Below, one piece after another: positions 4,317 through 53,722 of a DNA stretch of 64,000 bases; positions within the stretch are counted from its first letter, which is position 1, and each line of letters starts with the position of its first letter. A program made the position numbers and the translations under genes. This DNA is from Sphaerisporangium corydalis (GTDB taxonomy: Bacteria; Actinomycetota; Actinomycetes; Streptosporangiales; Streptosporangiaceae), in contig NZ_JANZYP010000002.1 of NCBI RefSeq assembly GCF_025506355.1, positions 124,001 through 188,000 of the forward strand, in the 5' to 3' direction. Below the pieces are notes generated by a model, which did no database searches, was not told the origin of the DNA, and saw only the letters and a program-made list of their open reading frames with translations.

Positions 4317-4360
4317 ACGATCCACACCCCCTCTCGAATCCGCCTCGAAAGCCGCTGAAG
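4317..4360 (-). promoter_or_regulatory. SARP-type promoter of the DUF1772/O-methyltransferase/ketoreductase operon (three boxes)
   Basis: On the minus strand three 7-bp boxes (CTTCAGC, TTCGAGG, TTCGAGA) sit at exact 11-bp steps (4 bp between boxes). They are followed by 9 bp and the -10-like hexamer GATCGT at 4317-4322. This is the spacing repeated at 14 other starts in the cluster. The predicted transcription start is near 4310, giving a leader of about 25 nt before the GTG at 4283. Confidence 0.75.
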
Positions 4361-4375
4361 GCCGTCCCATGAGTC

Positions 4376-4408
4376 TTCGAGGAGCATTCGAGCCGGGCGC
4401 GCGAGCAT
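4376..4408 (+). promoter_or_regulatory. SARP-type promoter of the second DUF1772 / SchA-CurD operon
   Basis: TTCGAGG at 4376-4382, 4 bp, TTCGAGC at 4387-4393, 9 bp, then GAGCAT at 4403-4408. The boxes are in sense orientation for the rightward gene, and back-to-back with the leftward site at 4317-4360. Confidence 0.75.
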
Positions 4409-4451
4409 GCCCGTACAAGGGAGTCCCGAACGGAGGGAAGGTGAACGGAGC

Positions 4452-4907
4452 GTGCTGGCGGAGGTTGTGAGCGTCGTCGTCCTGGTGGGTGCCGGTATCA
4501 CCGCCGGTGTGTTCGTCGCGGTGGCGGTGAGCGTGCTGCCGACACTCATAGCGATGCCAGCGGAGAGGTACGTCGAGACGCACCGGATGCTCGGCAAGGG
4601 CTATCACCCGCTGATGCCCCTGCTGGTGAACGCCACGATGCTGCTCGACATCGCCCTGGTAGTGCTGGTCGGCGGCGCCTCCGGGCCGTGGTTCGCCATC
4701 GCGGCGGTCCTGCTGCTCGGCAGCCAGTTCGTGTCGCACCTGTGCAACGTGCCCATCAACCGGTCGCTGCACAAGATCGACGTGACCGCGATCCCGGCCG
4801 ACTGGGCCGACCCCCGCCCCGAGTGGCGCGGCTGGCACCTGCTGCGTACGGCGATCGCGCTCGCCGCGCTGGTCGCCACGGGCGCCGGGGCGGTGCTGCT
4901 CCCCTAA
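4452..4907 (+). CDS. DUF1772 membrane protein, copy 2
   Basis: A 151-residue membrane protein paralogous to the divergent gene at 3819-4283. It shares the MPAERYVETH-like motif and the CNVPINRSLHK motif between hydrophobic segments. GTG at 4452 is chosen because in-frame upstream codons fall around or close to the predicted promoter and transcription start; purine-rich GGAGGGAAGG precedes it. It is followed 69 bp later by the SchA/CurD gene on the same strand. Function is inferred only from family: possible membrane-associated oxygenation or electron transfer to a polyketide intermediate. The pairing with copy 1 suggests a heteromer or two successive substrates. Confidence 0.78.
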   Translation: MLAEVVSVVVLVGAGITAGVFVAVAVSVLPTLIAMPAERYVETHRMLGKGYHPLMPLLVNATMLLDIALVVLVGGASGPWFAIAAVLLLGSQFVSHLCNVPINRSLHKIDVTAIPADWADPRPEWRGWHLLRTAIALAALVATGAGAVLLP

Positions 4908-4976
4908 CGGTTCGCGGGCCCCGCGTGACGGGAGCCCGGGACGGACCAACGTCAACCCGAGGAAAGAAGGAGTGCC

Positions 4977-5735
4977 ATGGCCTTCGCCGCCATCACCTAC
5001 CGAGTCAAGCCCGGGTACGAGAAGGAGATCGCCGAGATCTTCGACCCGGCCAACTTCAAGCGCGCCGACACCCCCAACGTGCGGAACGACCAGGGCGGCC
5101 AGTCGGCGCGGATCCTCGGCACCGGCCTGTTCATCCAGGACGACATCATGGTGCGGGCCATCCAGTACGACGGCGAGCTGGAGGACGTGGCGCGCCACAT
5201 GGCCTCGCAGCGCGGCGTCCGGGAGGCCGAGGAGCGCATCGCCCCCTACCTCGCCGAGGAGCGTGACACCTCCAGCGTCGAGGGCTTCCTGTCGTACTTC
5301 AGGAAGAGCACCATGCTGTGCGTGCAGCAGCGGACGATCCAGGACGTGCCGGGGGCCCAGCTCGCGGCGCTCCGCTACCGGGTCAAGCCGGGCTTCGAGC
5401 AGGAGATCGCGAAGGTCTTCAGCGAGGTCCAGGCCGAGGCGCGTCCGGCGCTGCGCGACCAGGCCGGCCAGGAGGTCGGGCTCATCGTGGCGGTCGCCCT
5501 GTTCGTCAAGGACGAGTCGATGATCCGCGTCGTGCAGTACGACGGCGAGCTGGACGACGTGGCCCGCTACATGGCCGCCAGGGGCGGGCGCCCCGACATG
5601 GAGCTCAAGCTGGCGCCGTACATGGACGAGGACCGGCACGTGGAGACGCGTGAGGACTTCCTGGCCCAGTTCAAGAAGAACACGATGCGGCGCATCTCGA
5701 TGCTGTCGGCGGCGAACCGCCCGCCGGCCGGCTGA
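4977..5735 (+). CDS. SchA/CurD-domain protein with two tandem repeats
   Basis: A 252-residue protein of the SchA/CurD family, found next to type II PKS genes for spore pigments and aromatic polyketides; its biochemical role is not established. Two homologous halves are visible. Residues about 1-115 carry AITYRVKPGYEKEIAEIF and FIQDDIMVRAIQYDGELEDVA; residues about 125-240 carry ALRYRVKPGFEQEIAKVF and FVKDESMIRVVQYDGELDDVA. AAGGAG precedes the ATG. It is cotranscribed with DUF1772 copy 2 and ends at a strong terminator. The ferredoxin-like ABM fold is a plausible guess, which would make it a cyclase or oxygenase helper. Confidence 0.85.
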   Translation: MAFAAITYRVKPGYEKEIAEIFDPANFKRADTPNVRNDQGGQSARILGTGLFIQDDIMVRAIQYDGELEDVARHMASQRGVREAEERIAPYLAEERDTSSVEGFLSYFRKSTMLCVQQRTIQDVPGAQLAALRYRVKPGFEQEIAKVFSEVQAEARPALRDQAGQEVGLIVAVALFVKDESMIRVVQYDGELDDVARYMAARGGRPDMELKLAPYMDEDRHVETREDFLAQFKKNTMRRISMLSAANRPPAG

Positions 5736-5750
5736 TCCGCCACCCACGCC

Positions 5751-5785
5751 GAAGGGCCCGGTCGACCTGGTCGACCGGGCCCTTC
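5751..5785. terminator. Perfect 16-bp stem terminator after the SchA/CurD gene
   Basis: GAAGGGCCCGGTCGAC (5751-5766), loop CTG, exact reverse complement at 5770-5785. It lies between two convergent genes and could stop both directions. No strong T-tract. Confidence 0.85.
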
Positions 5786-5794
5786 GGGCGTCGG

Positions 5795-5920: not shown

Positions 5921-6883
5921 CTAGAAGAACACCACCGAGCGCTCGCCGACCGGGTGGCGGAACGTCCACCACATCCACGCCTGCGCGAGCAGCAGGACCG
6001 GCAGCACGGGCAGGGCGATGCCGCTGAGCAGCGCGAGCGAGTCGGCGTCGCCGATGCTCTCCTGCACGGCCGAGCCGGTGCCGGCCAGCGCCACCAGGGC
6101 GGGGGTGGCCGCGGCGACGGCGGTGAGCGCGAAGGCGCGCCCCGGCCGCTTCCCGGCCGTCCGCGCGGCCAACGCCCCCACGGCGAGGCCGAGCAGGACC
6201 AGCGCGATGGCCGGCACCGGCCGGCCGACGGCGTCGCGGACGCCGCCCGACACCGCGCCCACGACCGCCGCCAGCGCGACGGCGATCAGCGCGGGCCGTA
6301 CCAGGACGGCCGCGAGCTTGGTCGCGCGCTCGGCGGGCTCGCCGGGCACGCGGAGCGCGACGAAGGTCGCGCCGTGCAACGCGAACAGCAGGACCGTGGC
6401 GATCCCGCACAGCAGCGTGAACGGGTTGACCACGTCGAGGAAACCGCTGCCCTGGTCCGCGCCGGGGAGACCTTCGAGGATGTTGCCGATCAGCAGGCCG
6501 AAGGCCAGCGCGAAGCAGACGCAGGCCACGGCCAGGACGCGTTCCCACAGGTCGCGCCACCGGTCGGACGGGCGGCGGCTGCGGAACCAGATCGCGGCGT
6601 CCCTGGCGATCCACGCGGCGAGCATCAGCACGACGACGGACCGGCAGCCGCTCAGCAGCCGGGTCTCGAATACCGGGAAGGCCCCGGTCAGTATGCCGAT
6701 CGTGGCGATCAGCCAGACCTCGTTGGCCAGGAAGAACGGCCCGATGCCGGTCAGCACGCGCCGCCGCCCGGCGGGCGTGCCGGAGAGCCTGGGCAGCAGC
6801 ATGCCGGTGCCGATGACGAATCCGTCCAGCAGCGACCAGCCGCCGAGCATCAGGATGAGAACGGCGAGCCAGACGACGTCCAT
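5921..6883 (-). CDS. cydB: Cytochrome bd ubiquinol/menaquinol oxidase subunit II
   Basis: A 320-residue polytopic membrane subunit of cytochrome bd, the quinol oxidase that reduces oxygen to water without proton pumping. It begins with MDVVWLAVLILMLGGWSLLDGF, typical of CydB (WxxLxGFxLG region). It keeps ANEVWLIAT and FTLLCGIATVLLFALHGA, and has about eight or nine hydrophobic segments. It lies 96 bp downstream of cydA in the same operon. It is embedded inside a polyketide cluster, between SARP-controlled units, yet has no SARP box. Likely roles are respiration or redox balance during oxidative tailoring. Confidence 0.92.
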   Translation of the reverse strand: MDVVWLAVLILMLGGWSLLDGFVIGTGMLLPRLSGTPAGRRRVLTGIGPFFLANEVWLIATIGILTGAFPVFETRLLSGCRSVVVLMLAAWIARDAAIWFRSRRPSDRWRDLWERVLAVACVCFALAFGLLIGNILEGLPGADQGSGFLDVVNPFTLLCGIATVLLFALHGATFVALRVPGEPAERATKLAAVLVRPALIAVALAAVVGAVSGGVRDAVGRPVPAIALVLLGLAVGALAARTAGKRPGRAFALTAVAAATPALVALAGTGSAVQESIGDADSLALLSGIALPVLPVLLLAQAWMWWTFRHPVGERSVVFF

Positions 6884-6979
6884 GTGCGCATCTCCTCGGG
6901 GGCGGCTCGGTGGGCGGGCGAGGTGGGCGGGGGAGACGTCCTCCCCGGCCGAGCGGGCGGGAAGGACTCTCTCCCTGGC

Positions 6980-8245
6980 TCAGTAGGCGGGGGAGACGGT
7001 CTCTTCACGGCGTTCCTCGCGGTCCAGGTCGGCGACGGTGCGGCCGAGAACCGCGCCGTCGGGGCCGAGCCTCGCGTACTTGGCGATGAGCAGCCAGTCG
7101 GTCACCGCGCAGATGACGTACAGCAGGGTGAAGACGACCAGGGACACAAGGACGGAGGCGAAGGACAGCGACGCCACCGCGTCGGCCGTCGTGAGCCGGC
7201 CGTACACCGCCCAGGGCTGCCTGCCGACCTCGCGGACCACCCAGCCCGCCACCACGGCGGTGAACGGGATGGGGATCATCCAGGTGAGCAGGCGCAGCAC
7301 GAGGCGGCGGCGCTCGATGAACCGGCCGATCAGCAGCAGCACGAAGATCAGGCCGATGTACTGGTACAGCTCGCCGACCGTGAGCATCCAGCTGAAGAAG
7401 CTCTTGACGAAGGCGGGCGGCGATCCGGCGGCGGCCAGCTCGGGCGGCACGGAAGCGCCGAGCTCCTGGAGCTTGCCGGGGTTGATCGCGGCCAGCTTGG
7501 TGGGCTGGGTGGTGGCGAGCAGGTCGGTCTGGCCGAAGCCCATGATGCTGGTGAACCACGCGGCGAAGAACGCCACCAGCAGGCCGAGGCGCAGCGCGCG
7601 CCCGTGCAGGTCACGGTCGCCGGTGTCCCGGCGCAGGTGCCAGGCGCTGACGCCGGCGATGAGGTATCCGCCCAGCAGGAGCGCGCCCGGCACGATGTGC
7701 TTGAGCGCGGAGGTGGCGCTCGGGTTGGTGAGCACCGCCGACAGGTCGGCCAGGCGGGCGACGCCGTCGCGCACCTCGTCGCCGACGGGGTGCTGCATGT
7801 AGCCGTTCGCCACGATGATCCAGAACGCCGAGACGTAGGCGGTGATCGTCACCAGGTAGAACAGCAGCAGGTGGACGGCCTTGTTCATCCGTCCCCAGCC
7901 GAAGATCCACATGCCGAGGAACGTCGACTCCAGGAAGAACGCGACCAGCGTCTCCATGGCCAGCGGCGCGCCGAAGACGTTGCCGGTGTAGGCGGTCAGC
8001 CCTGTCCAGTTCATGCCGAACTGGAACTCCAGCAGCAGGCCGGTGATGATGCCGACGGCGTAGTTGATGACGTAGATCTGTCCCCAGAACTTCGTCATCC
8101 GCTCGTGGATCGGCTTGCCGGTGATGGCGTACCGCGTCTGCATGAACGCGATGTACGGCGTGAGCCCCAGCGTGACGATCACGAACAAGAAGTGGAAGCT
8201 GGTCGTCACGGCGAACTGCAGCCGTGCCAGGTCGAGCACCTCCAT
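6980..8245 (-). CDS. cydA: Cytochrome bd oxidase subunit I
   Basis: A 421-residue haem-carrying subunit of cytochrome bd. It shows MEVLDLARLQFAVTTSFHFLFV with the high-spin haem ligand His near residue 18, the FFLESTFLGMWIFGW helix, and the quinol-site motif GRQPWAVYG followed by a short Q-loop. It is on the short side for the family. The ATG at 8245 lies about 27 nt from a CTACATGTAG palindrome, suggesting PadR control rather than SARP control. The cydD/cydC assembly genes are not in the window. Confidence 0.93.
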   Translation of the reverse strand: MEVLDLARLQFAVTTSFHFLFVIVTLGLTPYIAFMQTRYAITGKPIHERMTKFWGQIYVINYAVGIITGLLLEFQFGMNWTGLTAYTGNVFGAPLAMETLVAFFLESTFLGMWIFGWGRMNKAVHLLLFYLVTITAYVSAFWIIVANGYMQHPVGDEVRDGVARLADLSAVLTNPSATSALKHIVPGALLLGGYLIAGVSAWHLRRDTGDRDLHGRALRLGLLVAFFAAWFTSIMGFGQTDLLATTQPTKLAAINPGKLQELGASVPPELAAAGSPPAFVKSFFSWMLTVGELYQYIGLIFVLLLIGRFIERRRLVLRLLTWMIPIPFTAVVAGWVVREVGRQPWAVYGRLTTADAVASLSFASVLVSLVVFTLLYVICAVTDWLLIAKYARLGPDGAVLGRTVADLDREERREETVSPAY

Positions 8246-8282: not shown

Positions 8283-8331
8283 AGAAAAACCTATCCTACT
8301 CGCAGGGGCCTGGAACAGTGATCCAGATGTC

Positions 8332-8364
8332 TTCGATCCCCCTTTGAGACCTGTCCTGGATGGT
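8332..8364 (+). promoter_or_regulatory. SARP-type promoter of the exporter/rmlA operon
   Basis: TTCGATC (8332-8338), CCCC, TTTGAGA (8343-8349), 9 bp, then GATGGT (8359-8364). One box is degenerate, but spacing is identical to the other cluster promoters. The leader to ATG 8409 is about 38 nt and includes GGAG. Confidence 0.65.
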
Positions 8365-13563: not shown

Positions 13564-13607
13564 TTCGAGGGAGCTTCGAGCCGTCTTCCAGGGGATTGAT
13601 GAATGAT
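13564..13607 (+). promoter_or_regulatory. SARP-type promoter of cytochrome P450 gene 1 (three boxes)
   Basis: TTCGAGG (13564-13570), TTCGAGC (13575-13581) and TTCCAGG (13586-13592) at 11-bp steps, 9 bp, then AATGAT (13602-13607). The hexamer covers the ATG at 13603, which argues that the real start codon lies further right. Confidence 0.72.
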
Positions 13608-16596: not shown

Positions 16597-16629
16597 ATGG
16601 TCGCGCGGTGCGCTCGAAGCGCTCTCGAA
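16597..16629 (-). promoter_or_regulatory. SARP-type promoter of FAD monooxygenase 2
   Basis: Minus strand: TTCGAGA (16629-16623), GCGC, TTCGAGC (16618-16612), 9 bp, then GACCAT (16602-16597). Spacing matches the other cluster promoters. The leader to ATG 16553 is about 37 nt. Confidence 0.75.
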
Positions 16630-16644
16630 TCGGGATGGGTGCCC

Positions 16645-18474
16645 CTACAGCGCTGCGTGCGGCCGGTTTTCCTCGGTGCACTGCACGCCGTACAGGCGGG
16701 TCAGCTCAGGGATGGCGCAGGAGTAGTCGCCCTGAGGGCTGCTCTGGGAGATCGTCATGAGTCTCATGTCGATCAGATGCGTGAGCACCTCCTCGGCGGA
16801 GCTGACACTGATGTTCAGCAGGCCGGCGGTGCTGTGGGTGGAGAAGTCGCGCTCCCTGGACGCGCCGAGCACACTGAAGGCCTCGCGCATCTTCGGGTTG
16901 AGCTGGCGGAAGCTGTCCTCCAGGCGGGTGCGGACGTCGAGGTCGCCCCAGCGCAGTTCGGCCAGGCGTGAGCGCTCGTCGGCCAGCTTGGCCCGGCAGC
17001 GCTCCAGCGTCCAGTGCGGGGCCGCCGCCAGGCGCTCGCCGGCGATGCGGAGGCCGAGGGGCAGCGCTCCGCACATCTCGACGATCTCCTGTGCCGCGTC
17101 CTCCTCGGCCGCCACGCGCCCGTCCCCGATGATGCGCCGCAGGAGCTCCAGGCCGGAGTCGATGTCGAAGACCTCGAGCTCCATCTGGTCGGCGCTGGTC
17201 AGGCCGTAGAGCGGTGACCGGCTGGTGACGATGACCGAGCTGTTCGGCCCGGTCGGGCAGAGCGGCCTGACCTGTGCCCCCGAGTACGCGTCGTCCAGGA
17301 CGACGAGCAGGCTGCGGTCGGCGCTCCACGTGCGGAACAGGCTGCGGCGCGCCTCGAAGCCGCCCGGGATCTGGCTGTCGCGCAGCCCGCCGGCCCGCAG
17401 CATCGCGCCGAGCGCGTCGCCCGGCTCGCGCGGTTCGGCGGACATGCCGCGCAGGTTCAGGTAGAGCTGGCCGTCGGCGAACCTGCCGCGGATGCGGTGC
17501 CCGACGTGGGTGGCCAGCGCGGTCTTGCCCACTCCGGCCATGCCAGTGAGCGAGACGATCGGAAGTGCCTTCTTGTTGGCGGGGCTGATGAGCGAGGTCT
17601 CGATCCGCGCCCGCACCTCGCTCCGGTCGGTGAAGTCCACGATGTCGGGAGGCAGTTCCGCCGGCGCCGTCCTCGGCACCGGGGCCGGCCTCGGAGCCTC
17701 CACCTTGCGGGGCGGCAGGTCCAGCGAGGGGTCACCCCGGAGGATGGCCTGCTGGAGCCGCTGCACCGGCTGTGAAGGTTCGAGGCCGAGCTCCTCGTTG
17801 AGCATCGAGCGCAGCCGCCGGTAGACCGTGAGGGCCTCGCTGCGGCGCTCGGACCTGTAGAGCGCGAGCATGAGCCGCGAGTAGAAGCCCTCGCAGATCG
17901 GGTAGGTGGAGGTGAGCTCCTTCAGCTCGCTGATCTGCTCGCGGTGGCGTCCGAGCCGCAGCGCGGCGTCCATCCGCATTTCCAGCGCGTTGAGGTGGCT
18001 CTCCTCCAGCTTGATCGCGTGAGCCTCCAGCAGGCGGCCCCGAGGGACGTCGGTGAGGGCGCTCCCTCTCCACAGGCTCAGCGCGTGACCGAGCGTGTCC
18101 GACGTCTGCTCCAGCTCGCCCGCCGCGAGGAATTCTCTCCCCTGCTGGACGAGCCGCTCGAAGTGGTGGATGTCGATGGCCTCGGGAGGCACTTGTGCCT
18201 CGTATCCGGCGGCCTTCGTGACGAGGAACTCCTCGCCCGGGTGTCCTGCCGCTGTCATCATGCGGCGGAGTTGGTAGATGTAGGTCTGCAAGGTGGTCGC
18301 GGCGCTGATCGGCGGTGAGTCACCCCACAGTTCGTCGATCAGCGAGTCCGCACGGGTGATCCGGTTGTAGTTAATCAAAAGTAAGGACAACACCGTGCGG
18401 AGTTTTGGTGCGGAAGGCGTTAAATCTTGCTCGCCGATTCGCACCTCAAAAGTACCTAAAACCTTGAAATGCAT
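16645..18474 (-). CDS. SARP-family pathway activator with NB-ARC domain (AfsR-like, no TPR)
   Basis: A 609-residue regulator. Residues about 1-95 form an OmpR-like winged helix (SLIDELWGDSPP, TLQTYIYQLRR), about 100-245 the bacterial transcriptional activator domain (EESHLNALEMRMDAALRLG), and about 280-600 an NB-ARC ATPase with P-loop GMAGVGKTALA, LLVVLDDAYSG and GLPLGLRIA. The TPR domain of full AfsR is missing. ATG 18474 is chosen because the family begins MxFxVLG and GGGGA precedes it; an in-frame ATG 12 nt upstream is possible. Leucines at 18457-18459, 18421-18423 and 18382-18384 are encoded by TTA, implying bldA tRNA dependence. It is the only SARP in the window and the best candidate to bind the fifteen TTCGAGC-type promoters. 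I see no such box in front of this gene itself. Confidence 0.92.
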   Translation of the reverse strand: MHFKVLGTFEVRIGEQDLTPSAPKLRTVLSLLLINYNRITRADSLIDELWGDSPPISAATTLQTYIYQLRRMMTAAGHPGEEFLVTKAAGYEAQVPPEAIDIHHFERLVQQGREFLAAGELEQTSDTLGHALSLWRGSALTDVPRGRLLEAHAIKLEESHLNALEMRMDAALRLGRHREQISELKELTSTYPICEGFYSRLMLALYRSERRSEALTVYRRLRSMLNEELGLEPSQPVQRLQQAILRGDPSLDLPPRKVEAPRPAPVPRTAPAELPPDIVDFTDRSEVRARIETSLISPANKKALPIVSLTGMAGVGKTALATHVGHRIRGRFADGQLYLNLRGMSAEPREPGDALGAMLRAGGLRDSQIPGGFEARRSLFRTWSADRSLLVVLDDAYSGAQVRPLCPTGPNSSVIVTSRSPLYGLTSADQMELEVFDIDSGLELLRRIIGDGRVAAEEDAAQEIVEMCGALPLGLRIAGERLAAAPHWTLERCRAKLADERSRLAELRWGDLDVRTRLEDSFRQLNPKMREAFSVLGASRERDFSTHSTAGLLNISVSSAEEVLTHLIDMRLMTISQSSPQGDYSCAIPELTRLYGVQCTEENRPHAAL

Positions 18475-18636
18475 GACGGTCCCCATCGCCCCGGCCCTGG
18501 TTCGGCGTATGCAGTCGGCATATGCCCTATGTAGGCATTACCACACTAAGCTAGTGACGCGTAGAATGTCTACCCATTGGCCGCTCGGATCGTGGCACCG
18601 CCTGAAGCGGGTTTCGCGAGGCAGGAGAGGAGTGGC

Positions 18637-24913: not shown

Positions 24914-26131
24914 TCATGTGCCGCAGGCGCGCAGGACGAGCGCCGCGTTGAATCCGCCGTAACCGCGGGCCAGGACGAGGGCGGTACGCACCGGCATCCG
25001 CCGGGGCGCGCCTCGCACCAGGTCGATGCGGTAGCCGGGGTGGATCTCCCAGTCCTCTGGCAGGGCCGGGACCACTCCGTCGCGGATGGTCAGCAGGGCC
25101 GTGACGATGTCCAGCGGCGCGCCGCCGGCGTACATCCGGCCGGTCAGCACCTTGGGCGCCGCGACGGGCACGCCCTCGGGCCCGAACACCGCGCTGATCG
25201 CCTCCGCCTCGTCGCGGTCGGCACCGGCCTCTCCCATGGCGTCGGCGAACACCACGTCCACGTCGGCGGGGGTGATCCCCGCGTCCGCGAGCGCGTTCTC
25301 GATGGCGCCCCGCAACGTCGGGGGGCGCCCTGAACCGGGAGGCGGGTCGAAGGTCGCGGCGTAACCCGCCACCTCGCCGTACGGCGTGCCCGCCCCTCGG
25401 GAGGCGGCGTGCTCGGCGTCCTCCACGATCAGCTTGGAACCGCCCTCGCCCGGCAGGTAGCCGCACGCGTCCTCGCTGAACGGACGGAACGCCCGGGCGG
25501 GGTCGGAGTCGCGGCTGAGCAGGCCGGTGCTGAGCTGCGCCGTCAGGCCGTAGGGGCACAGGGAGGCGTCGGTGCCCCCGCTGACCACGACCTTGGCGCC
25601 GTTGCGCAGCATCCGGCGCGCCTGCGCGACGGCGTCCAGCCCGCCCGCCTGCTCGTTGGCGATGACGCCGCACGGCCCGCGCATGCCGTGCCTGATGGAG
25701 ATCTGGCCGGTGCTGGCCGCGTAGAACCAGGCGATCGACTGGTACGCGCCGACCGTCCTCGACCCCTTGGACCAGAGCTTCTGGATCTCCCGCTGGCCGA
25801 ACTCGGTGCCGCCCGACGACGCGGCGGTCACCACCGCCATGTCGTACTCGGGCACCTCCGCGGGGTCGATCCTCGCGTCAGCGAGGGCCATCTCGGCGGT
25901 CAGGAAACCCATGTGGGTCCAGTGGTCGGTCTGCGGGACCAGCAGGCTGGGCACCCGCTCGGCCGCGTCGAACTCCCGGACCTCGCCGGCCAGCCGCACC
26001 GGGTAGGACGACGCGTCGAACCTGCTGATCGGCTTGATGGCGGTGTCGCCCGCCAGCACCGACGACCAGTGCTCCTCGATCCCGATGCCGGTCGGGGCCA
26101 CGACGCCGAGACCGGTGATCACCGCGGTCAT
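24914..26131 (-). CDS. Ketosynthase beta / chain length factor
   Basis: A 405-residue KS-fold protein in which the catalytic Cys is replaced by Gln (ANEQAGG, Gln161), the mark of a chain length factor. It forms a heterodimer with KS-alpha and sets the number of malonyl extensions. The ATG overlaps the KS-alpha stop (ATGA), which keeps the partners stoichiometric. The exact chain length cannot be read by eye; neighbouring cyclases suggest a long (about 24-carbon) pentangular precursor. Confidence 0.95.
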
Positions 26132-27399
26132 GCCGCTAGCCTGTCGAGACTCGACAGCAGCATCGCCGTCTGGAATCCGCCGAACCCGCTCCCGACCGTC
26201 AGCACCGTACGGACCCGCTGCTCGCGGGCGGTGTGCGGCACGTAGTCCAGGTCGCACTCGGGGTCGGGGGTGTCGAGGTTGGCCGTCGGAGGGACGACGC
26301 CCCGCTCGATCGCCAGGATCGAGGCGGCGATCTCGATCGAGCCGATCGCGCCGAGCGAGTGCCCGACCATCGACTTGATGGAGCTCACCGGCACCTCGTA
26401 GGCGCGGTGCCCGAGGCTCGCCTTGAACGCCGCGGTCTCGTGCCGGTCGTTCTGCTTGGTCCCGGAACCGTGCGCGTTGATGTAGTCGATGTCCTCGGGC
26501 CGGATGCGCGCCCTCTCCATGGCGACCCTGATGGCCTCGGCCATCTCGCGGCCGTCGGGCTTGAGGCCCGTCATGTGGAAGGCGTTGCTCCGCGTGGCGA
26601 ACCCGGTGACCTCCGCGTAGATGTGGGCGCCCCGGGCACGCGCCCGTCCCAGCTCCTCCAGGACGAACACCGCCGACCCCTCGCCGAGCACGAACCCCTT
26701 GCGGTCACGGTCGAACGGCCGCGACGCGTGCTCGGGGTCGTCGTTCTGCGGGGTGGTCGCGCGGATGGCGTCGAAACAGGCCGAGGTGATGGGCGAGATG
26801 GGCGCGTCGGTCGCGCCCGCGATCATCACGTCGGCCGATCCCTCGTGGATGAGCTGTGCGCCGTACCCCACCGAGTCCAGGCCGGAGGTGCAGCCGGTGG
26901 AGATGAGCGCCACCGGCCCCTCCGCGCCGCAGGCCCAGGCCGTCTCCACGGCCAGGGTGCTCGGCACCATGTAGCCGTAGAGGTGGGGCACCCCGTAGGT
27001 GGAGTCGACGAGCCAGTTGCGCCCGCCGTCGCTCAGGACGACGTACTCCTCCTCCAGGCCCATCGTGCAGCCCACCGCGCTGCCGAGGCTGACCCCGGTG
27101 CGGTTGGCCGGCAGGTCATCCCTGGTCAGGCCACTGTCGGCCAGGGCGTCCCTGGTGCAGACCACGGCGAACTGCGCGGCCCGGTCCATCCTGCGGATCT
27201 CCTGGGGCGAAAGCCCCTCGCGGGCCGGGTCGAAGTCGCACTCGGCCGCCACCCTGGACCGGAACCCCGTCGCGTCGAACAGGGAGATGCTCCGGGTGGC
27301 GGTCTTCCCGCTGGTCAGCAGCTCCCAGAATGCCTTGGTGCCGATGCCGCCCGGCGCCACGACCCCGACGCCGGTGATGACGACCCTGCGCGTGTCCAT
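26128..27399 (-). CDS. Ketosynthase alpha of the minimal type II PKS
   Basis: A 423-residue condensing enzyme with nucleophile Cys170 in STGCTSGLD, His310 in [11 protein letters not shown] and His347 in [11 protein letters not shown]. It performs the decarboxylative condensations that build the poly-beta-ketone on the ACP. ATG 27399 is chosen; its first base is also the first base of the stop codon of the cupin cyclase gene (minus-strand TGATG), so translation is coupled, and GAAGGG lies upstream. It is the defining gene of the cluster. Confidence 0.97.
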
Positions 27400-27845
27400 C
27401 AACCGTCGCCCTTCCCGGCGGGCGCCCCGACCGCCGCGATCGGCTCGTCGGCCGCGGGCAGCGGCTCGGTGTCGACGTGGCCGAGCTCGGGACGGGGTGC
27501 CAGCGGGCCGAGCTGGAAGACGACGAACGCCGTCTCCGTCCCGGTGTTGACCAGCCGGTGCCGCGCGTTCTTCGGCACCATGAACGCCTGCCCGGCGACC
27601 AGGTCGATCACGGCGCCCTCGACCGTCATGGCCAGGGTGCCGCTCTGCACGTACAGGAACTCCTCCGAGTACGGGTGGTAGTGCTCGCTGACGTACTCGC
27701 CGGCCTTCAGCGTCAGCACGCCCATGAAGCCGGACGTCGAGTCGGCCGTCTTCGGGCTGAGCAGGATGCGGATGTCCCCGCCCCTGCGCCGGTTCGGGGC
27801 AACGTCTTCGGCCGCGACCGGGTCGCGGACCACCTTGTCAGGCAT
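27399..27845 (-). CDS. Cupin-fold polyketide cyclase (TcmJ/WhiE-OrfII type)
   Basis: A 148-residue cupin with the metal-binding first motif [15 protein letters not shown] and the second motif [14 protein letters not shown]. TcmJ-type cupins assist ring closure by the minimal PKS in tetracenomycin, spore pigment and pentangular pathways. The C-terminal 30 residues are Pro/Ala-rich and probably disordered. A strong AAAAGGAGA site precedes the ATG. Confidence 0.9.
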
Positions 27846-28207: not shown

Positions 28208-29427
28208 CGAGTTCCTCCTTCGTCGGTGGGCACCGCCATGCTGCGATGCCCGGCTACAGCCCGGCTTGAGATCTCCTCCAGCCGCCTGGCGACCTGAAGC
28301 GGGCTCGGCCGGTCGCGGTTCTCCCGCTCCAGCCGGGCGGCCGCCTCGCGGTGGGCCGGGTCGTCGAGCAGCGCCCGCATCTCGGCCCGTATGGTGTCCG
28401 GCTCGGCGTCCTCGCCGGCGAGCCGGCGTCCCGCTCCGGTGCCCGCCAGCTGTGCGGCGCTGAACCGCTGGTCGGGAAGCTGGGGGATGACGAGCTGCGG
28501 CACGCCGCTCGCCACCGCGGTGAGCATGGACCCGCCGCCGCCCTGGTGGACCAGGGCCGAGCAGGTCGGCAGCAGCAGGTGCAGGGGCACCGACTCGACC
28601 ACCCGCACGTTGCCGCCCGGCTCGCCGATCAGCTCGCGCGTCGCGGCGTTGACCGCCACCACGATCTCGGCGTCCAGCTCGGCGAGCGCGCCGACCACCC
28701 GGGGGGCGAGGAACGCCTCCGGGCCCGCGAGCGCGGCGGTGGACACCCCCCACGTGACGCAGACGCGCGTACGGCCGGTGGGCTCCAGCAGGTCGCGCGG
28801 AACCGACGCGGCCCCGTTGTAGGGGACGTACCGCATCGGGATCCGCTCCAGCTCCACCGGGGCCTGCATGCTCGGCGGGCACGGGTCGACGCTGTAGTCG
28901 CCGGTCGAGTCGATGTCGGAAAGGCCGTACCGCTCGGCCAGGCGGCGCAGCGCGGGCACCTCGATCCTGCCGCCGCGCGCCGGGCCGGCGTTCGTGCCGT
29001 CCGGTCCCCACAGGTGGCGGACCGCGGGGACGCCGAGGACGCCGGCGATGAGCGGCCCGGTGAACGCGGTGGGCTCGTAGACCACCATGTCGGGCGACCA
29101 GGAGCGCGCGAACGCCACCGCCTCCCCCGACATGGCCTCGGCGACCTCGGCGAAGATGCCGATGGCGGCCAGGGTGCGCCGCTTGCGCACCTGCGGGTCG
29201 GGGTTCCCGATCAGCGGTTGCACGTCGCGCTTGAACAGCTCGGTGATGTCGACGTCGTGCCCGACCGGCACAGGAAGCTGGCCGGAGCGGGCGACGGTCT
29301 GGACGTGCGCGGGAGGCACCGCGACCCGGACCTCGTGGCCGTGGGAGCGCAGCGCCCAGGCCAGCGGCACCATCGGAAAGTAGTGGGTCGGCCAGGATGA
29401 TACGAACAGGACGCGCACAGGGCTCAC
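28204..29427 (-). CDS. GT-B glycosyltransferase 1 (family 1, natural product type)
   Basis: A 407-residue glycosyltransferase transferring a dTDP-activated deoxysugar to the aglycone. The N-terminal acceptor domain starts VRVLFVSSWPTHYFPMVPLAWAL; the C-terminal donor domain has PLHLLLPTCSALVHQGGGGSM and the late PDQRFSAAQL. The GTG at 29427 has only a weak ribosome site. It lies between the KSIII and TcmI-like genes in the PKS operon and is paralogous to the enzyme at 46994-48139. Two such genes imply two glycosylation events. Confidence 0.9.
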   Translation of the reverse strand: MSPVRVLFVSSWPTHYFPMVPLAWALRSHGHEVRVAVPPAHVQTVARSGQLPVPVGHDVDITELFKRDVQPLIGNPDPQVRKRRTLAAIGIFAEVAEAMSGEAVAFARSWSPDMVVYEPTAFTGPLIAGVLGVPAVRHLWGPDGTNAGPARGGRIEVPALRRLAERYGLSDIDSTGDYSVDPCPPSMQAPVELERIPMRYVPYNGAASVPRDLLEPTGRTRVCVTWGVSTAALAGPEAFLAPRVVGALAELDAEIVVAVNAATRELIGEPGGNVRVVESVPLHLLLPTCSALVHQGGGGSMLTAVASGVPQLVIPQLPDQRFSAAQLAGTGAGRRLAGEDAEPDTIRAEMRALLDDPAHREAAARLERENRDRPSPLQVARRLEEISSRAVAGHRSMAVPTDEGGTR

Positions 29428-30511: not shown

Positions 30512-30544
30512 AGACTCGGTGGCGGGCCTTGAACTCCGCTCGAA
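30512..30544 (-). promoter_or_regulatory. SARP-type promoter of the 14-gene PKS operon
   Basis: Minus strand: TTCGAGC (30544-30538), GGAG, TTCAAGG (30533-30527), 9 bp, GAGTCT (30517-30512), then 6 nt to the ATG of the KSIII gene. It appears to be the only obvious promoter for the leftward run ending at 18667. Confidence 0.75.
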
Positions 30545-30565
30545 TCGCGCTGGTACGTAGCGGAT

Positions 30566-30598
30566 GTCAAGCGACCTTCGAGCCGGTGCTGCGACCGT
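30566..30598 (+). promoter_or_regulatory. SARP-type promoter of FAD oxidoreductase 30626
   Basis: GTCAAGC (30566-30572), GACC, TTCGAGC (30577-30583), 9 bp, GACCGT (30593-30598). It is back-to-back with the PKS operon promoter. The leader to ATG 30626 is about 21 nt and contains AGGAGG. Confidence 0.75.
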
Positions 30599-33758: not shown

Positions 33759-33802
33759 ACCATCGCACCGGCGGCTAGAGCAGCGCTCGTCCACCGCTCG
33801 AC
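33759..33802 (-). promoter_or_regulatory. SARP-type promoter of the A-T didomain gene (three boxes)
   Basis: Minus strand: GTCGAGC (33802-33796), GACGAGC (33791-33785), CTCTAGC (33780-33774) at 11-bp steps, 9 bp, GATGGT (33764-33759). The third box is degenerate. Confidence 0.6.
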
Positions 33803-33820
33803 ACCGGCGGCCGGACGTTC

Positions 33821-33853
33821 TTCGAGCCGCCTTCGAGGCGACGTTGTCACCCT
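33821..33853 (+). promoter_or_regulatory. SARP-type promoter of the sugar aminotransferase gene (leaderless)
   Basis: TTCGAGC (33821-33827), CGCC, TTCGAGG (33832-33838), 9 bp, CACCCT (33848-33853), then 6 nt to the ATG at 33860. No ribosome site is present. Confidence 0.78.
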
Positions 33854-40151: not shown

Positions 40152-40196
40152 AGTATGTGCCGGTAGGGCTTTACCTCTGCTCGAAGACCGCTCGAA
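40152..40196 (-). promoter_or_regulatory. SARP-type promoter of the BNR/methyltransferase/ABC operon (three boxes)
   Basis: Minus strand: TTCGAGC (40196-40190), TTCGAGC (40185-40179), GTAAAGC (40174-40168), 10 bp, CATACT (40157-40152), 6 nt, ATG. The only member with a 10-bp rather than 9-bp gap. Confidence 0.68.
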
Positions 40197-42627: not shown

Positions 42628-42641
42628 TTATGCATCTTAGG

Positions 42642-44409: not shown

Positions 44410-44447
44410 CCGCGCCCGGCCCGATCCCGTTCGTGGTCCCGGACACG

Positions 44448-44470
44448 GCGCCCGGCCGTACGCCGGGCGC
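44448..44470. terminator. Terminator between padR-1 and multicopper oxidase 2
   Basis: GCGCCCGGC (44448-44456), loop CGTAC, GCCGGGCGC (44462-44470), between convergent genes. Confidence 0.7.
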
Positions 44471-44492
44471 GTCCTCGGTGACCGTGCCACGC

Positions 44493-45983: not shown

Positions 45984-46078
45984 GACGCCTCCACCTTCCC
46001 GATCACCGGCCCGCATGCTGGCCTCGCCGCCTGGAGTTCCGGTCCAGAACGGCTCGTGGGAGTGGCCCTCCATCGGCC

Positions 46079-46111
46079 CTCGACCACCTGTCGAGCCGTC
46101 GCTGTCAGCGT
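46079..46111 (+). promoter_or_regulatory. SARP-type promoter of the methyltransferase/glycosyltransferase-2 operon
   Basis: CTCGACC (46079-46085), ACCT, GTCGAGC (46090-46096), 9 bp, CAGCGT (46106-46111). The leader to ATG 46150 is about 32 nt and carries AAGGAGAG. Confidence 0.7.
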
Positions 46112-46149
46112 CTGACCGAGTCCGTGAGACATCGGCAAGGAGAGAGCTC

Positions 46150-46971: not shown

Positions 46972-46993
46972 TCTGACGAAGGGGCGCACGCCG

Positions 46994-48139: not shown

Positions 48140-48160
48140 GCACCGTGCGGCTCACCACCC

Positions 48161-49387: not shown

Positions 49388-49420
49388 AGGGTGACAGGCC
49401 GCTCTCGAAGGCGGCTTTAG
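49388..49420 (-). promoter_or_regulatory. SARP-type promoter of P450-2
   Basis: Minus strand: CTAAAGC (49420-49414), CGCC, TTCGAGA (49409-49403), 9 bp, CACCCT (49393-49388). One degenerate box; canonical spacing. Confidence 0.65.
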
Positions 49421-49470
49421 CCGAGATCCAGGTGGCGCCCCCCGTCGGCCCGACCCCGGACCGACACGTA

Positions 49471-49503
49471 CTCCAGCGACCTTCGAGTGCCGGCGGTGAG
49501 CAT
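49471..49503 (+). promoter_or_regulatory. SARP-type promoter of the GH31/BCCP operon
   Basis: CTCCAGC (49471-49477), GACC, TTCGAGT (49482-49488), 9 bp, GAGCAT (49498-49503). The leader to ATG 49538 is about 28 nt and includes GAGGAGGAG. Confidence 0.7.
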
Positions 49504-49537: not shown

Positions 49538-51409
49538 ATGCGGGAATCCCAGACCGTACTCGAGCGACCGGCCTTCCGGTTACGGCTCGGCGGTCCGACC
49601 GCACCGTTCGTCCATCTGGATTTCGAGACGTTCACGCAGCCGCTGCTGATAGGCGTGGGTGTGGACGCTCCGGAAGCGCTTGACCGCGAGATCGATCTGG
49701 TCGACAGGACCATCGCAGACAGGGGAGAGTACGAGCGCATCACCTGGACCGCGAAGAGCACCCGCTGGGACAAGTTCTACCATCTCGACGTCTACCGCGA
49801 CCGGCTCGAGTTCCACGCCGAGGTGATCGGGAACGGCCCGATCTCCGCCGTGCGGTACTTCGAGACCGTGGAGGACGCGACGTTCCGGGAGCACTTCGCG
49901 CTCACCAAGCACTTCAACGACAAACGACACACACCGGTCCGCGCCTACTCGCGGCCGTCCCCCACGGCGTTCCGCCGGGTCTTCAGCCCGGAGCCGAACA
50001 CCTACGGGCGTCAGGAGTTCCAGCCCTACGAGAACGTCCAGATCAGCGTGAACGCCGACCTGGACTACCAGGGCGGCAACCTCGTCGCCAACCCCGGCCT
50101 GCTCTGCTTCGCGGTCGCCGCGCGGCCCGAGCACGAGTGGCTGACCTTCGGCCTGCGCGTGCAGCCGGGGGAGTACCACTTCTCCGACTACGAGTACGTG
50201 GGGGGAGAGGGGTTCGGTCTGCACCTGTCCTGCCCGGGAGAGGTGTGGGTCGAGGGGCGCGCCGAGACGCCGCGCGTGGTGATGGTGCTCGACCGCGACC
50301 CCGAGCTGGCGCTGCGGTCGTACGTGACGGCGTTGCGCGCCCCGGTGGCGCGCGGCGCGTTCACCGACGCGGCGGTGAGCGGCGCGACCGTGCCGAGCGC
50401 CTCCGCAGGGGAGCGCCCGTCGTGGTGGAGCCGGCCGATCGTCTCCGGGTGGGGGCACCAGTCCTACCAGGGCGACCTGTTCCGGATCCGCAGCCCGAGG
50501 GAGCGGCAGAAGGACAACGCCGTCTACACCCTGTGCACCGAGCCGAACTACCGCGACATCGTCCGGCGCCTGGACGACCGTGAGGTCCCCTGGGGCACGC
50601 TGGTCATCGACGCCCGGTGGTTCCTCGCGGCCGGGCTGAAGAACCTGGACCCGGGGCGCTGGCCCGACATGCGGGGCTTCGTGGACCACGTCCACTCCAC
50701 GGGCAGGCGCGTCCTGCTGTGGTGGGGGCCGTGGGACCCCGAAGGGCTGCCGGACGACGAGTGCGTGCTGTACCGCCCGGCCGACCGGCCGGCCCGCCCG
50801 CTCAAACGCGGCAAGTGGGACCGGCTGCGCCCGGGCTCGAAGGTCGCGATCGACGTCACGCTGCCGCAGGCCCGCGAGCGCATCCGGCGGCAGCTCCGCC
50901 AGGTGCTCGGGTCGGGACCCGGGTGCTTCGACATCGACGGCCTGAAGATCGACCACGTCTCGGCGACGCCCGCCGTCGACGGCATGGCCTTCAACGCGGG
51001 GTCACGCCGGCTGTTCGGCATCGAGGCGGCCAAGGAGATGCACCGGCTGATCTACCAGACCGCCAAGGAGATCAAACCGGACGCCCTCATCATGGGGCAG
51101 TCCCCCAACCCCTATTTCGCCGACGTCCTCGACATGGTGCGTCTGGGCGACATCTACACGCGCGACCGCGACTCGGTCGTGGCCGACATGGCGTTCCGCG
51201 CCCGGATGGCCCGCATCGCCGACGAGAACTGGCTGATCGACACCGACGGATGGCCGCTGCCGTCCCTGTCGGCGTTCCGCGAGTACGTGGAGGCGCAACC
51301 GGGGCTCGGCGTGCCGAGCCTGTACTACGCCACCCATCTCGACACCACGGGCGAAGCACTCACCGAGGCGGAGTTCGCCCTCATCAGGTCGGCCTGGGCG
51401 GACCTGTGA
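49538..51409 (+). CDS. Glycoside hydrolase, GH31/alpha-glycosidase-like
   Basis: A 623-residue protein: an N-terminal beta-sandwich-like half (about residues 1-300) and a TIM-barrel half with WGTLVIDARWFL, VLLWWGPWDPEG and CFDIDGLKIDH, where the Asp of DGLKxD is the likely nucleophile. There is no signal peptide, so it acts in the cytoplasm. ATG 49538 has GAGGAGG 7 nt upstream; an earlier in-frame ATG would lie in or before the predicted promoter. A glycosidase under cluster control is unusual and could hydrolyse a glycosylated intermediate, remodel a sugar, or serve self-protection. Substrate unknown. Confidence 0.78.
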   Translation: MRESQTVLERPAFRLRLGGPTAPFVHLDFETFTQPLLIGVGVDAPEALDREIDLVDRTIADRGEYERITWTAKSTRWDKFYHLDVYRDRLEFHAEVIGNGPISAVRYFETVEDATFREHFALTKHFNDKRHTPVRAYSRPSPTAFRRVFSPEPNTYGRQEFQPYENVQISVNADLDYQGGNLVANPGLLCFAVAARPEHEWLTFGLRVQPGEYHFSDYEYVGGEGFGLHLSCPGEVWVEGRAETPRVVMVLDRDPELALRSYVTALRAPVARGAFTDAAVSGATVPSASAGERPSWWSRPIVSGWGHQSYQGDLFRIRSPRERQKDNAVYTLCTEPNYRDIVRRLDDREVPWGTLVIDARWFLAAGLKNLDPGRWPDMRGFVDHVHSTGRRVLLWWGPWDPEGLPDDECVLYRPADRPARPLKRGKWDRLRPGSKVAIDVTLPQARERIRRQLRQVLGSGPGCFDIDGLKIDHVSATPAVDGMAFNAGSRRLFGIEAAKEMHRLIYQTAKEIKPDALIMGQSPNPYFADVLDMVRLGDIYTRDRDSVVADMAFRARMARIADENWLIDTDGWPLPSLSAFREYVEAQPGLGVPSLYYATHLDTTGEALTEAEFALIRSAWADL

Positions 51410-51450: not shown

Positions 51451-51942
51451 ATGAGCGAGCGCGCTGGGCACACGCCCACGTTGGAGGAACTGTGGCGCCA
51501 CGCCACCGGGGTCATCGACGCCGGAGCGGGCCCGGTGCGGCGGATCAAGCTGTCCGCCGGGGAGACGAGCGTCGAGATCGAGTGGCCCGAGCACGTCGGC
51601 GCCGCGGCCTATGTGCCGCTCGCCGCGGTGGCCACCGTCCCGGCGAGCCTGCCGGCGGCCGTACACGGCGTCGCCGACCTCCAGCCCGACCCGGCGGCGC
51701 ACCAGGTGTGCGCCCCGCTGGTCGGGACCTTCTACCGCGCCCCGTCCCCGGGCGCCAAGCCGTTCGTCGAAGTCGGGGACACGGTGGTGGCCGGGCAGCG
51801 GGTGGCCATCGTCGAGGCGATGAAGCTGATGAACGGGGTCGAGGCCGACCGCGACGGCCTGGTCACCGCCATCCTGGTCGAGGACGCCACGTCGGTGGAG
51901 TACGGCCAGCCGCTGATCACCATCGATCCAATGGATGAATGA
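51451..51942 (+). CDS. accB: Biotin carboxyl carrier protein
   Basis: A 163-residue BCCP with a Pro/Ala-rich linker and a biotinyl domain from about residue 85; the biotin site is Lys125 in EAMKLMN. It carries the carboxyl group between AccC and the fused AccDA encoded 29-31 kb to the left, completing an acetyl-CoA carboxylase. It follows the GH31 gene by 41 nt with AAGGAG before the ATG. Its last 26 nt overlap a small ORF on the other strand. Confidence 0.93.
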   Translation: MSERAGHTPTLEELWRHATGVIDAGAGPVRRIKLSAGETSVEIEWPEHVGAAAYVPLAAVATVPASLPAAVHGVADLQPDPAAHQVCAPLVGTFYRAPSPGAKPFVEVGDTVVAGQRVAIVEAMKLMNGVEADRDGLVTAILVEDATSVEYGQPLITIDPMDE

Positions 51943-52199: not shown

Positions 52200-52205
52200 G
52201 CCGAT

Positions 52206-52526
52206 ATGAAGCTCGACACACTCCGGGGGCATCTGGACGCGTTGGTGCTGGCAGTGCTCGAGCCCGGTCCTCTTCACGGCTACGCCATCATCAGCACCCT
52301 GCGGACCCGCAGCGGAGACACCCTCGACCTTCCCACCGGCACCATCTACCCAGCCCTGCGACGCCTGGAGCATGCCGAGTACGTCTCCAGTGACTGGAGC
52401 ATCGTCGGAGGCCGCAAGAGGCGCACCTATGAGCTGACCGCCGCGGGCCGCCGCGCTCTGGCAAGTGAGCGCGACACCTGGAAGGCGTTCAGCAACATCG
52501 TCGCAGGGGTTCTCGGAACAGACTGA
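52206..52526 (+). CDS. PadR-family transcriptional regulator 2
   Basis: A 106-residue winged-helix repressor: LDALVLAVLEPGPLHGYAII, LPTGTIYPALRRLEHAEYV, RRTYELTAAGRRAL, with a full C-terminal helix (RDTWKAFSNIVAGVL). It is similar to padR-1 but complete. It probably controls itself and the small divergent ORF at 51917-52090; either PadR could act on the CTACATGTAG sites at cydA and multicopper oxidase 1. The ligand may be the phenolic product or an intermediate. Confidence 0.9.
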   Translation: MKLDTLRGHLDALVLAVLEPGPLHGYAIISTLRTRSGDTLDLPTGTIYPALRRLEHAEYVSSDWSIVGGRKRRTYELTAAGRRALASERDTWKAFSNIVAGVLGTD

Positions 52527-52640
52527 GCAGTAGCTCTCAGCACCGTCTGAGCGGTTCCCGGACCAGACCGAGCGATCCTCGGGTCGGGCCGGGCGGTTCT
52601 CAGGACAGGCTGAGCAGCCAGGATCGGGGCAGGCCGGCGG
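52527..52640. repeat. Degenerate tandem repeats after padR-2
   Basis: About five imperfect 20-24 bp units of the form CTGAGCGGTTCTCGGACAGG follow the stop. They resemble in style, not sequence, the GC-rich repeats after the HAAS gene. No coding frame is supported. Confidence 0.45.
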
Positions 52641-52645
52641 CCGGA

Positions 52646-53620
52646 CTAACCAAGGTCCGGCCGGAGCGGCTCCCACCACTCCCGGTTCTCCTGGTACCAC
52701 CGCACCGTCTCGGCCAGCCCGTCGTCGAAGGAGATGCGGGCCTCGTAGCCGACCTCCCGCCGGGCCTTGTCCACGTTCAGCGAGTACCGCTGGTCGTGCC
52801 CCAGCCGGTCGGCCACCCTGCGCACCCGCTCCGGCCCCGCGCCGCACATCTCCAGCAGCCGTTCGGTCAGCGAGCGATTGGTCAGCTCCACACCCCAGCC
52901 GAGGTGGTAGACCTCACCGGGACGTCCCTTGCCGAGGACCAGGTCGATCCCCCGGCAGTGGTCGTCCACATGCACCCACTGGCGCACCACCTGGCCGTCG
53001 CCGTACAGCGGCACGTCCCGCCCCGACAGCAGGTTCGTCACGAAGAGCGGGATGAGCTTCTCCGGGAACTGGTGCGGACCGTAGTTGTTGGAACAGCGGG
53101 TGATGCACACCGGCAGTCCGTGCGTGTGATGGTAGGCCTGCATGATCAGGTCGCTGCCGGCCTTGGACGCCGAGTACGGCGAGCTCGGGCACAGCGGCGC
53201 GTCCTCCGACCACGAGCCCTCGGCGATCGAGCCGTAGACCTCGTCGGTCGACACGTGCACGACGCGTTCGATGTTCCGTCGCAGGCAGGAGTCGGCCAGG
53301 GTCTGCGTCCCCAGCACGTTGGTCCGGACGAAGACGCCCGGGTCGGTGATCGAGCGGTCCACATGCGACTCGGCCGCGAAGTGGACGACGGCGTCATGGC
53401 CGGGCAGCAGGTCCATGAGCAGGTCGCGGTCGCAGATGTCGCCGCGCACGAAGGACAGCCGAGGGTTGTCCATGGGTAGGTTCGACGTGGTGCCGGCGTA
53501 GGTCAGCTTGTCGAGAACCGTCACCTCGGCGTCTTCACACCCGGCGTACTGGTCGTCGAGCAGACAGCGGACGTAGTGGCTTCCGATGAAGCCCGCGCCT
53601 CCAGTTACGAGGATCCTCAT
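52646..53620 (-). CDS. rmlB: dTDP-glucose 4,6-dehydratase
   Basis: A 324-residue extended SDR converting dTDP-glucose to dTDP-4-keto-6-deoxyglucose, the branch point for the amino sugar. It shows GGAGFIGSHYVR, FAAESHVDRSI, STDEVYGSI, catalytic YSASKAGSD, and NNYGPHQFPEKLIPL, all diagnostic of RmlB. The ATG has no ribosome site; CAGCCT ends 6 nt upstream and the promoter boxes follow the cluster pattern, so it is probably leaderless. Confidence 0.95.
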   Translation of the reverse strand: MRILVTGGAGFIGSHYVRCLLDDQYAGCEDAEVTVLDKLTYAGTTSNLPMDNPRLSFVRGDICDRDLLMDLLPGHDAVVHFAAESHVDRSITDPGVFVRTNVLGTQTLADSCLRRNIERVVHVSTDEVYGSIAEGSWSEDAPLCPSSPYSASKAGSDLIMQAYHHTHGLPVCITRCSNNYGPHQFPEKLIPLFVTNLLSGRDVPLYGDGQVVRQWVHVDDHCRGIDLVLGKGRPGEVYHLGWGVELTNRSLTERLLEMCGAGPERVRRVADRLGHDQRYSLNVDKARREVGYEARISFDDGLAETVRWYQENREWWEPLRPDLG

Positions 53621-53626
53621 GCGCCA

Positions 53627-53659
53627 AGGCTGGCCTGTCCACCTCGGGCAACGATCGAA
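53627..53659 (-). promoter_or_regulatory. SARP-type promoter of rmlB (leaderless)
   Basis: Minus strand: TTCGATC (53659-53653), GTTG, CCCGAGG (53648-53642), 9 bp, CAGCCT (53632-53627), 6 nt, ATG 53620. The boxes are degenerate but spacing is exact. Confidence 0.6.
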
Positions 53660-53689
53660 TGCCGGTGGAAGCACCTGGTGAAAGGCCCC

Positions 53690-53722
53690 TTCGAGCGCGC
53701 TTCGAGCGCGCACGTCCATGCT
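53690..53722 (+). promoter_or_regulatory. SARP-type promoter of ABM gene 53729 (leaderless)
   Basis: TTCGAGC (53690-53696), GCGC, TTCGAGC (53701-53707), 9 bp, CATGCT (53717-53722), 6 nt, ATG 53729. The cleanest copy of the motif in the window. Confidence 0.8.

Follow-up and report, generated by a model that had tools for sequence, protein, structure and literature searches.

Seventeen sites of one layout, found in a 64,000-nucleotide stretch of the Sphaerisporangium corydalis genome (hereafter the window; contig C75:124001-188000 of a 9.48-Mb genome, or 0.68% of it), are very probably the operators of a pathway-specific activator of the SARP (Streptomyces antibiotic regulatory protein) family, most likely the product of the gene at window positions 16645-18486, at 17 promoters of a putative type II polyketide cluster. 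The motif of these sites, their spacing, their conservation and their confinement to the cluster are observed directly, as is the occurrence of a single SARP gene in the cluster that three species share. The cluster is also present in two relatives, Sphaerisporangium fuscum and S. rufum. The alignment with S. fuscum covers window positions 2014 to 54004 and that with S. rufum 363 to 54024, the S. rufum contig beginning at 363, and the SARP-type sites span 4317 to 53722. A literature search (Sphaerisporangium, type II polyketide) turned up, judged by title, no paper on this cluster.

An earlier reading of the letters alone (the first-pass annotation) had listed 15 promoters with a shared layout of two heptamers separated by 4 bp and followed, after 9 bp (10 at one site), by a hexamer NANNNT, always read in the orientation of the gene. 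This layout stood for 14 of the 15 promoters. At 13564 the register had to be corrected, as the hexamer at 9 bp is GGGGAT there and lacks the A at position 2; one 11-bp step downstream, at 13575, the sequence TTCGAGC-CGTC-TTCCAGG-N9-AATGAT restores the pattern, and the S. rufum counterpart (rufum 16401, hexamer GATGAT) has a good score only in this corrected register (26.2 vs 10.0). The corrected register also makes GTG 13642 the likely start of the P450 gene. The 10-bp gap at 40152 (hexamer CATACT) was borne out, and both relatives have 9 bp at this place. All 15 promoters were retained, but the list was incomplete: two minus-strand sites, 28238 and 46015, had been missed, bringing the number to 17. 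Downstream of each of the 17 sites, within 120 nt and on the same strand, a frame of at least 85 aa opens, and the sites form six divergent pairs (4317/4376, 30512/30566, 33759/33821, 46015/46079, 49388/49471 and 53627/53690). The predicted operator/promoters, with coordinates that include a third box one step upstream, and the SARP gene are as follows.

4317..4360, minus strand: -10 GATCGT; anthrone-oxygenase-like gene 3819-4283
4365..4408, plus strand (site 4376): -10 GAGCAT; anthrone-oxygenase-like gene ending 4907, SchA/CurD-domain gene 4977-5735
8321..8364, plus strand (site 8332): -10 GATGGT; POT/MFS transporter 8409-9920
13564..13607, plus strand (triple-box, corrected register 13575): -10 AATGAT; P450, likely start GTG 13642
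16597..16640, minus strand: -10 GACCAT; FAD monooxygenase 14958-16553
28238..28281, minus strand (missed earlier): -10 CAGCAT; polyketide cyclase 27875-28207, then the ketosynthase genes
30512..30555, minus strand: -10 GAGTCT; KAS III-like gene 29453-30505, possible leaderless ATG 30505
30555..30598, plus strand (site 30566): -10 GACCGT; FAD-binding protein gene 30626-31810
33759..33802, minus strand (weaker): -10 GATGGT; AMP-binding acyl ligase ending 31870
33810..33853, plus strand (site 33821): -10 CACCCT; DegT-type aminotransferase, possible leaderless ATG 33860
40152..40196, minus strand (triple-box, 10-bp gap): -10 CATACT; BNR-repeat protein gene, possible leaderless ATG 40145
46015..46058, minus strand (missed earlier): -10 CAGCAT; multicopper oxidase ending 44493
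46068..46111, plus strand (site 46079): -10 CAGCGT; methyltransferase-domain gene 46150-46971, glycosyltransferase 46994-48139
49388..49431, minus strand: -10 CACCCT; P450 48161-49360
49460..49503, plus strand (site 49471): -10 GAGCAT; GH31-like gene 49538-51409, biotin carrier 51451-51942
53627..53670, minus strand: -10 CAGCCT; sugar dehydratase/epimerase-type gene, possible leaderless ATG 53620
53679..53722, plus strand (site 53690): -10 CATGCT; ABM-domain protein 53729-54016, possible leaderless ATG 53729
16645..18486, minus strand: SARP activator gene, 613 aa, AfsR-like (Pfam Trans_reg_C, BTAD, NB-ARC)

Two other candidates were rejected. Position 42642 (plus strand) has good boxes, but an A..T hexamer in register is absent and no match is kept in S. 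rufum; a bidirectional reading of 13564, with GATAAT at 13548 as the minus-strand hexamer, is conserved in S. fuscum but not in S. rufum.

Pattern searches, which covered the whole genome, placed seven of the eight exact pairs TTCGAG-N5-TTCGAG in the window (binomial 5e-15), while a reversed-pattern control gave two genome-wide. When the hexamer was included and up to two mismatches were allowed, 12 of 22 places fell in the window, representing 11 distinct promoters (binomial 5e-21; reversed control, 7 genome-wide). Within the window, exact TTCGAG pairs occur seven times at a step of 11 and at most once at every other step from 6 to 69. The position of the hexamer is supported by box pairs taken without regard to it: in six of eight an A at position i and a T at i+4 occur at the claimed offset, against at most two of eight at each of 46 other offsets, and the two exceptions are the triple arrays 13564 and 40152.

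In leave-one-out scoring with a weight matrix, 13 of the 15 sites claimed at first ranked 16th or better among about 128,000 window positions. Site 33759 ranked 28th with the -10 and 260th on the boxes alone, its orthologs scoring 19.2 and 20.9, and 40152 fails this scoring because of its 10-bp spacer; ranks on the boxes alone were lower also for 46079 (26th) and 53627 (45th). For later scans the matrix was trained on 14 of the 15 sites, without 40152 and with 13564 in the first-pass register, and within S. corydalis these scans covered the window and 232 kb. A higher density of matrix matches in the cluster, on which the first-pass annotation had staked its reading, was indeed found in the part of the genome scanned: the window held 16 matches of at least 16, a number that includes overlapping registers, and ten other 20-kb stretches held none. 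This 200-kb background leaves out two loci fetched for their motif matches (L043 and L044), with which it comes to 232 kb and two matches of at least 16. Of the added sites, 28238 scores 16.1 (16.7 in each of the two relatives) and sits within the 3' end of the glycosyltransferase gene 28204-29427, and 46015 scores only 12.5 (13.8 and 14.3 at the orthologous places).

One place outside the cluster with perfect boxes and a hexamer, G000:C94:43296 (L043:8296), was considered as a distal regulon member linked to the copper oxidases of the cluster. The ATG of a membrane protein gene follows it after 10 nt, and a CopC-domain gene comes about 1.5 kb further downstream. At 11 homolog loci of the membrane protein the best matrix score was 10.1 and a comparable site was absent, and two exact pairs in the reversed control put one outlier at chance level; the place was therefore rejected. 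A further match, CTGGAGG...TTCGAG, occurs outside the cluster in all three genomes and may be unrelated conserved sequence.

All 15 promoters of the initial list have counterparts in S. fuscum and S. rufum, the one of 33821 being degenerate in S. fuscum, and 28238 and 46015 are likewise kept in all three species. Across the 15 of 17 sites that were compared column by column (33821, whose scored S. fuscum site is absent, and 40152, with its indel, were omitted), three-way identity was 0.90 for box1, 0.85 for box2 and 1.0 for A2 and T6 of the hexamer, and it was 0.77 for the third box, 0.63 and 0.65 for the two 4-bp spacers, 0.48 for the 9-bp spacer, 0.34 far upstream and 0.31 downstream. Over 49 site instances, the window row of 40152 omitted, A2 and T6 of the hexamer were each present in 49 of 49, a count that is partly circular for the relatives, because the matrix used to select their sites contains the hexamer; the hexamer-blind test of the box pairs is not circular. 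Position 1 was G in 29 instances, C in 17, A in three and T in none. When position 1 was left out of the matrix, T was found there at other SARP loci in one of 34 matches of at least 15 and in three of 46 of at least 14. For S. avermitilis the hexamer is reported as TANNNT (PMC8780764).

At five of the 17 sites (30512, 33821, 40152, 53627 and 53690) the hexamer is followed by an ATG at a distance of exactly 6 nt (1.5e-7); their scored counterparts show a gap of 6 or 7. The spacing suggests leaderless mRNAs at the five genes starting with ATG 30505, 33860, 40145, 53620 and 53729.

The third, degenerate heptamer lies one 11-bp step upstream of box1 and has an A at position 5 in 16 of the 17 window sites (binomial 7e-13 at 14.7% A), the sole site without it being 33821. 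This A is identical in the three species at 16 of 16 sites, and comparison columns from -60 to -12 hold at most 7 A of 17. A signal for a fourth heptamer further upstream was absent at the 17 window sites. At other SARP loci the third-box A occurs in 14 of 26 matches, compared with a mean of 2.9 and a maximum of 10 in columns -40 to -12, and the literature describes sites with three heptamers at some promoters (PMC10972967, PMC5930380). We tentatively propose, as a possibility that falls somewhat short of being probable, that the working SARP operator is a three-monomer site, in which the degenerate third heptamer, chiefly its A5, is selected at essentially every promoter of the regulon and positions, near -47, either a third SARP or the alpha C-terminal domain of RNA polymerase. 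The feature would be common at the family's other SARP promoters, but not present at all of them.

The 613-aa protein encoded at 16645-18486 carries an OmpR-type DNA-binding domain (Trans_reg_C, residues 27-95) and a BTAD domain (104-249), both above the Pfam cut-offs, which places it in the SARP family. It aligns with AfsR (8k60) over residues 5-607, including the NB-ARC part (phmmer E 3.1e-107). A TPR part was not found by Pfam, the protein ending at 613 aa, and it is not classed as AfsR, its 477 bits falling short of the 1430 that the NCBIfam AfsR equivalog requires. It is 83-86% identical to its orthologs in S. fuscum and S. rufum and at most 48% identical to the others among the matches listed. 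In the window its only match is itself, and the shared cluster of each relative holds one match; a second SARP of S. fuscum, with 34% identity, is encoded about 5 kb outside the shared stretch. The gene contains TTA codons at residues 10, 22 and 35, of which 22 is kept in both relatives and 10 in S. fuscum. Control of the bldA type is common for such regulators and is possible for this gene, judging from its codons.

If the hexamer is taken as -12 to -7, box1 falls on -39 to -33, box2 on -28 to -22 and the weaker third box on -50 to -44, and the strongly kept T2 of box1 falls on -38. SARP monomers would then bind side by side on the 11-bp direct repeats directly upstream of weak -10 elements, would replace the missing -35 and would bring RNA polymerase with the housekeeping sigma factor to the promoter, so that the hexamer, mostly S-A-N-N-N-T, would be used mainly with SARP bound, as we propose. 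Binding, recruitment, activation and sigma use at the 17 predicted promoters are what we infer. In the AfsR complex two SARP monomers are described side by side on -40 to -19, reading the T at -38 via R92, overlapping the -35 and contacting sigma region 4 and the alpha C-terminal domain (PMC10936776). The 11-bp step, which the first-pass annotation had likened to known SARP sites, agrees with the published SARP promoter (PMC10936776, PMC4393881). The fixed distance to the -10, which it had taken to be unusual, is on the contrary part of a published rule, with the 3' repeat 8 bp from the -10 and repeats at 11 or 22 bp (PMC10936776, PMC4393881; for several SARPs, PMC7040171). The 9 bp counted at first becomes the published 8 bp if the heptamer is taken to start one base further on; in the corrected registers the published spacing occurs at 16 of 17 sites, 40152 having one extra base.

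Three other explanations were weighed. That TCGA-rich or dispersed repeats were taken for motifs, by chance or through base composition, is next to inconceivable. TCGA is palindromic and a few perfect-looking matches exist outside the cluster, such as the one on C94, but genome-wide confinement, three-species conservation with variable spacers and the hexamer-blind -10 test strongly oppose an artefact. The fixed distance between boxes and hexamer could likewise be that of a sigma motif, the boxes being -35-like elements of an alternative sigma factor, which we regard as very improbable. A sigma motif does not resemble a series of two or three boxes repeated every 11 bp, of which one is centred near -36 and a third near -47. 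The layout also recurs at other SARP loci and agrees with the AfsR complex as described (PMC10936776).

Less remote, and still unlikely, is that the same operators serve another SARP of the genome, instead of or besides the 16645-18486 product, which would then be only one of several inputs. Matrix sites were found at four of 13 stretches around SARP homologs chosen without regard to the motif (6 matches of at least 16 in 260 kb, compared with 0 in the 200-kb own-genome background), and seven stretches from four loci chosen for a motif match held 20 such matches in 140 kb. The motif is thus common to several SARPs of the group; the other nine of the 13 stretches have no match of at least 16, and the motif therefore does not accompany every SARP. 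Among 11 genomes of the genus, the three that have a close ortholog of the SARP contain 10, 5 and 8 motif matches (up to one mismatch), and the eight without contain 0, 0, 1, 2, 0, 0, 1 and 1, all five of these matches having a BTAD gene within 20 kb. Other SARP loci of the genus, L063-L068 (G164:C55, G184:C6 and G150:C91), carry multiple sites with this layout, and similar regulons may therefore be widespread in the family. The 16645-18486 gene is, however, the only SARP match in the shared cluster in all three species, and it is this cluster position and co-inheritance that links the operators to its product.

Several observations count against the favoured reading. The genome contains 38 BTAD matches, which, together with the similar boxes at other SARP loci, means that another SARP could bind here, and the three congeners G164, G184 and G150, which have no close ortholog, carry multi-site loci next to other SARPs in the matrix scans. 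Ten of the 22 looser pattern matches lie outside the window, about as many as the reversed control gives (7). In S. fuscum, 33821 scores 8.9 with boxes CTCGAGC, CTCGTCC and CTCGACG, and its hexamer, 6-nt gap and ATG are retained; the conservation of 28238 weighs less because that site lies in coding sequence. Only four of 12 AfsR DNA-contact residues are identical in the 16645-18486 protein (W74, P79, T88 and R94), the base-reading R92 of AfsR being Q72 and K95 being R; the different heptamer may go with these changed contacts (R92 to Q). Finally, the gap upstream of the SARP gene holds no matrix match of at least 9, and autoregulation is therefore not seen. With these points included, operators of a pathway-specific SARP remain the very probable reading.

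The cluster type was predicted from the following biosynthetic genes.

24914..27402, minus strand: two tandem ketosynthase genes (Pfam)
24629-24883, beside the tandem ketosynthase genes: acyl carrier protein gene (Pfam)

Read as KS-alpha and KS-beta, the tandem ketosynthases would mark a type II polyketide synthase (PKS) cluster, which also has glycosyltransferase genes. Genes for cytochrome bd oxidase subunits (window 5921-8245) lie inside the cluster and have no conserved SARP site of their own. In S. rufum about 14 kb of extra sequence (C85, about 34654-48885) is found within the cluster, between the counterparts of 31810 and 31870. Between a multicopper oxidase gene and a frame without a Pfam match, about 100 bp at window 42561-42718 are strongly kept in the three species; this block holds a palindrome, TCTACATGTAGA (about 42608-42619), and a GTCGAGTAAAC..GAGTAGGGG block, outside the SARP register, and is perhaps the operator of another regulator.

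The claim that one window yields an unusually complete regulon map was supported, with 17 promoters kept in three species. The result is a nearly complete predicted promoter map of a polyketide cluster, which names promoters worth testing and suggests that raising one activator could turn on the whole pathway. The weight matrix also picks up sites at some of the family's other SARP loci, and what the third heptamer and the weak S-A-N-N-N-T hexamer do becomes directly testable.

The heptamers of ActII-ORF4 and DnrI, which we take to be of the TCGAG type, resemble the cluster boxes. Three-heptamer sites occur at some of their promoters; these are small Streptomyces SARPs, and the third heptamer is described at some sites only, in contrast to A5 in 16 of 17 sites here (PMC10972967). 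PimR of Streptomyces natalensis likewise uses heptamers with 4-nt spacers, three repeats being deemed the optimum, but is described with the consensus CGGCAAG, a single target promoter and an operator that does not overlap the -35 (PMC5930380). Closer in setting are OtcR and Ctc11 of the oxytetracycline and chlortetracycline type II PKS clusters, cluster-situated SARPs whose two or three 11-bp repeats in divergent promoter regions, with the 3' repeat 8 bp from the -10, were located by motif search, a search across type II PKS clusters having already been published (PMC4393881). OtcR differs in being a small 251-aa SARP described without an ATPase part, and five oxy promoters were tested as compared with 17 predicted sites here (PMC4393881). 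AfsR at the afsS promoter of Streptomyces coelicolor shares the SARP domain with NB-ARC, two 11-bp direct repeats, the T at -38, a poor -35 and a suboptimal -10, CACTGT, which also has the SANNNT form (PMC10936776). Its repeat is given as CGTT(T/C)ATCGNN (PMC10972967) and not as the TTCGAGC of the Sphaerisporangium cluster, it has the TPR part that the 613-aa protein does not have, and eight of 12 named DNA-contact residues differ. Since its layout is that of the published SARP promoter (PMC10936776, PMC4393881), the regulon is ordinary in kind, and it is real, strongly supported and unusually complete; new here are the number of sites, their support from three species, a third heptamer at nearly every site and the fact that T is scarce at position 1 of the hexamer.

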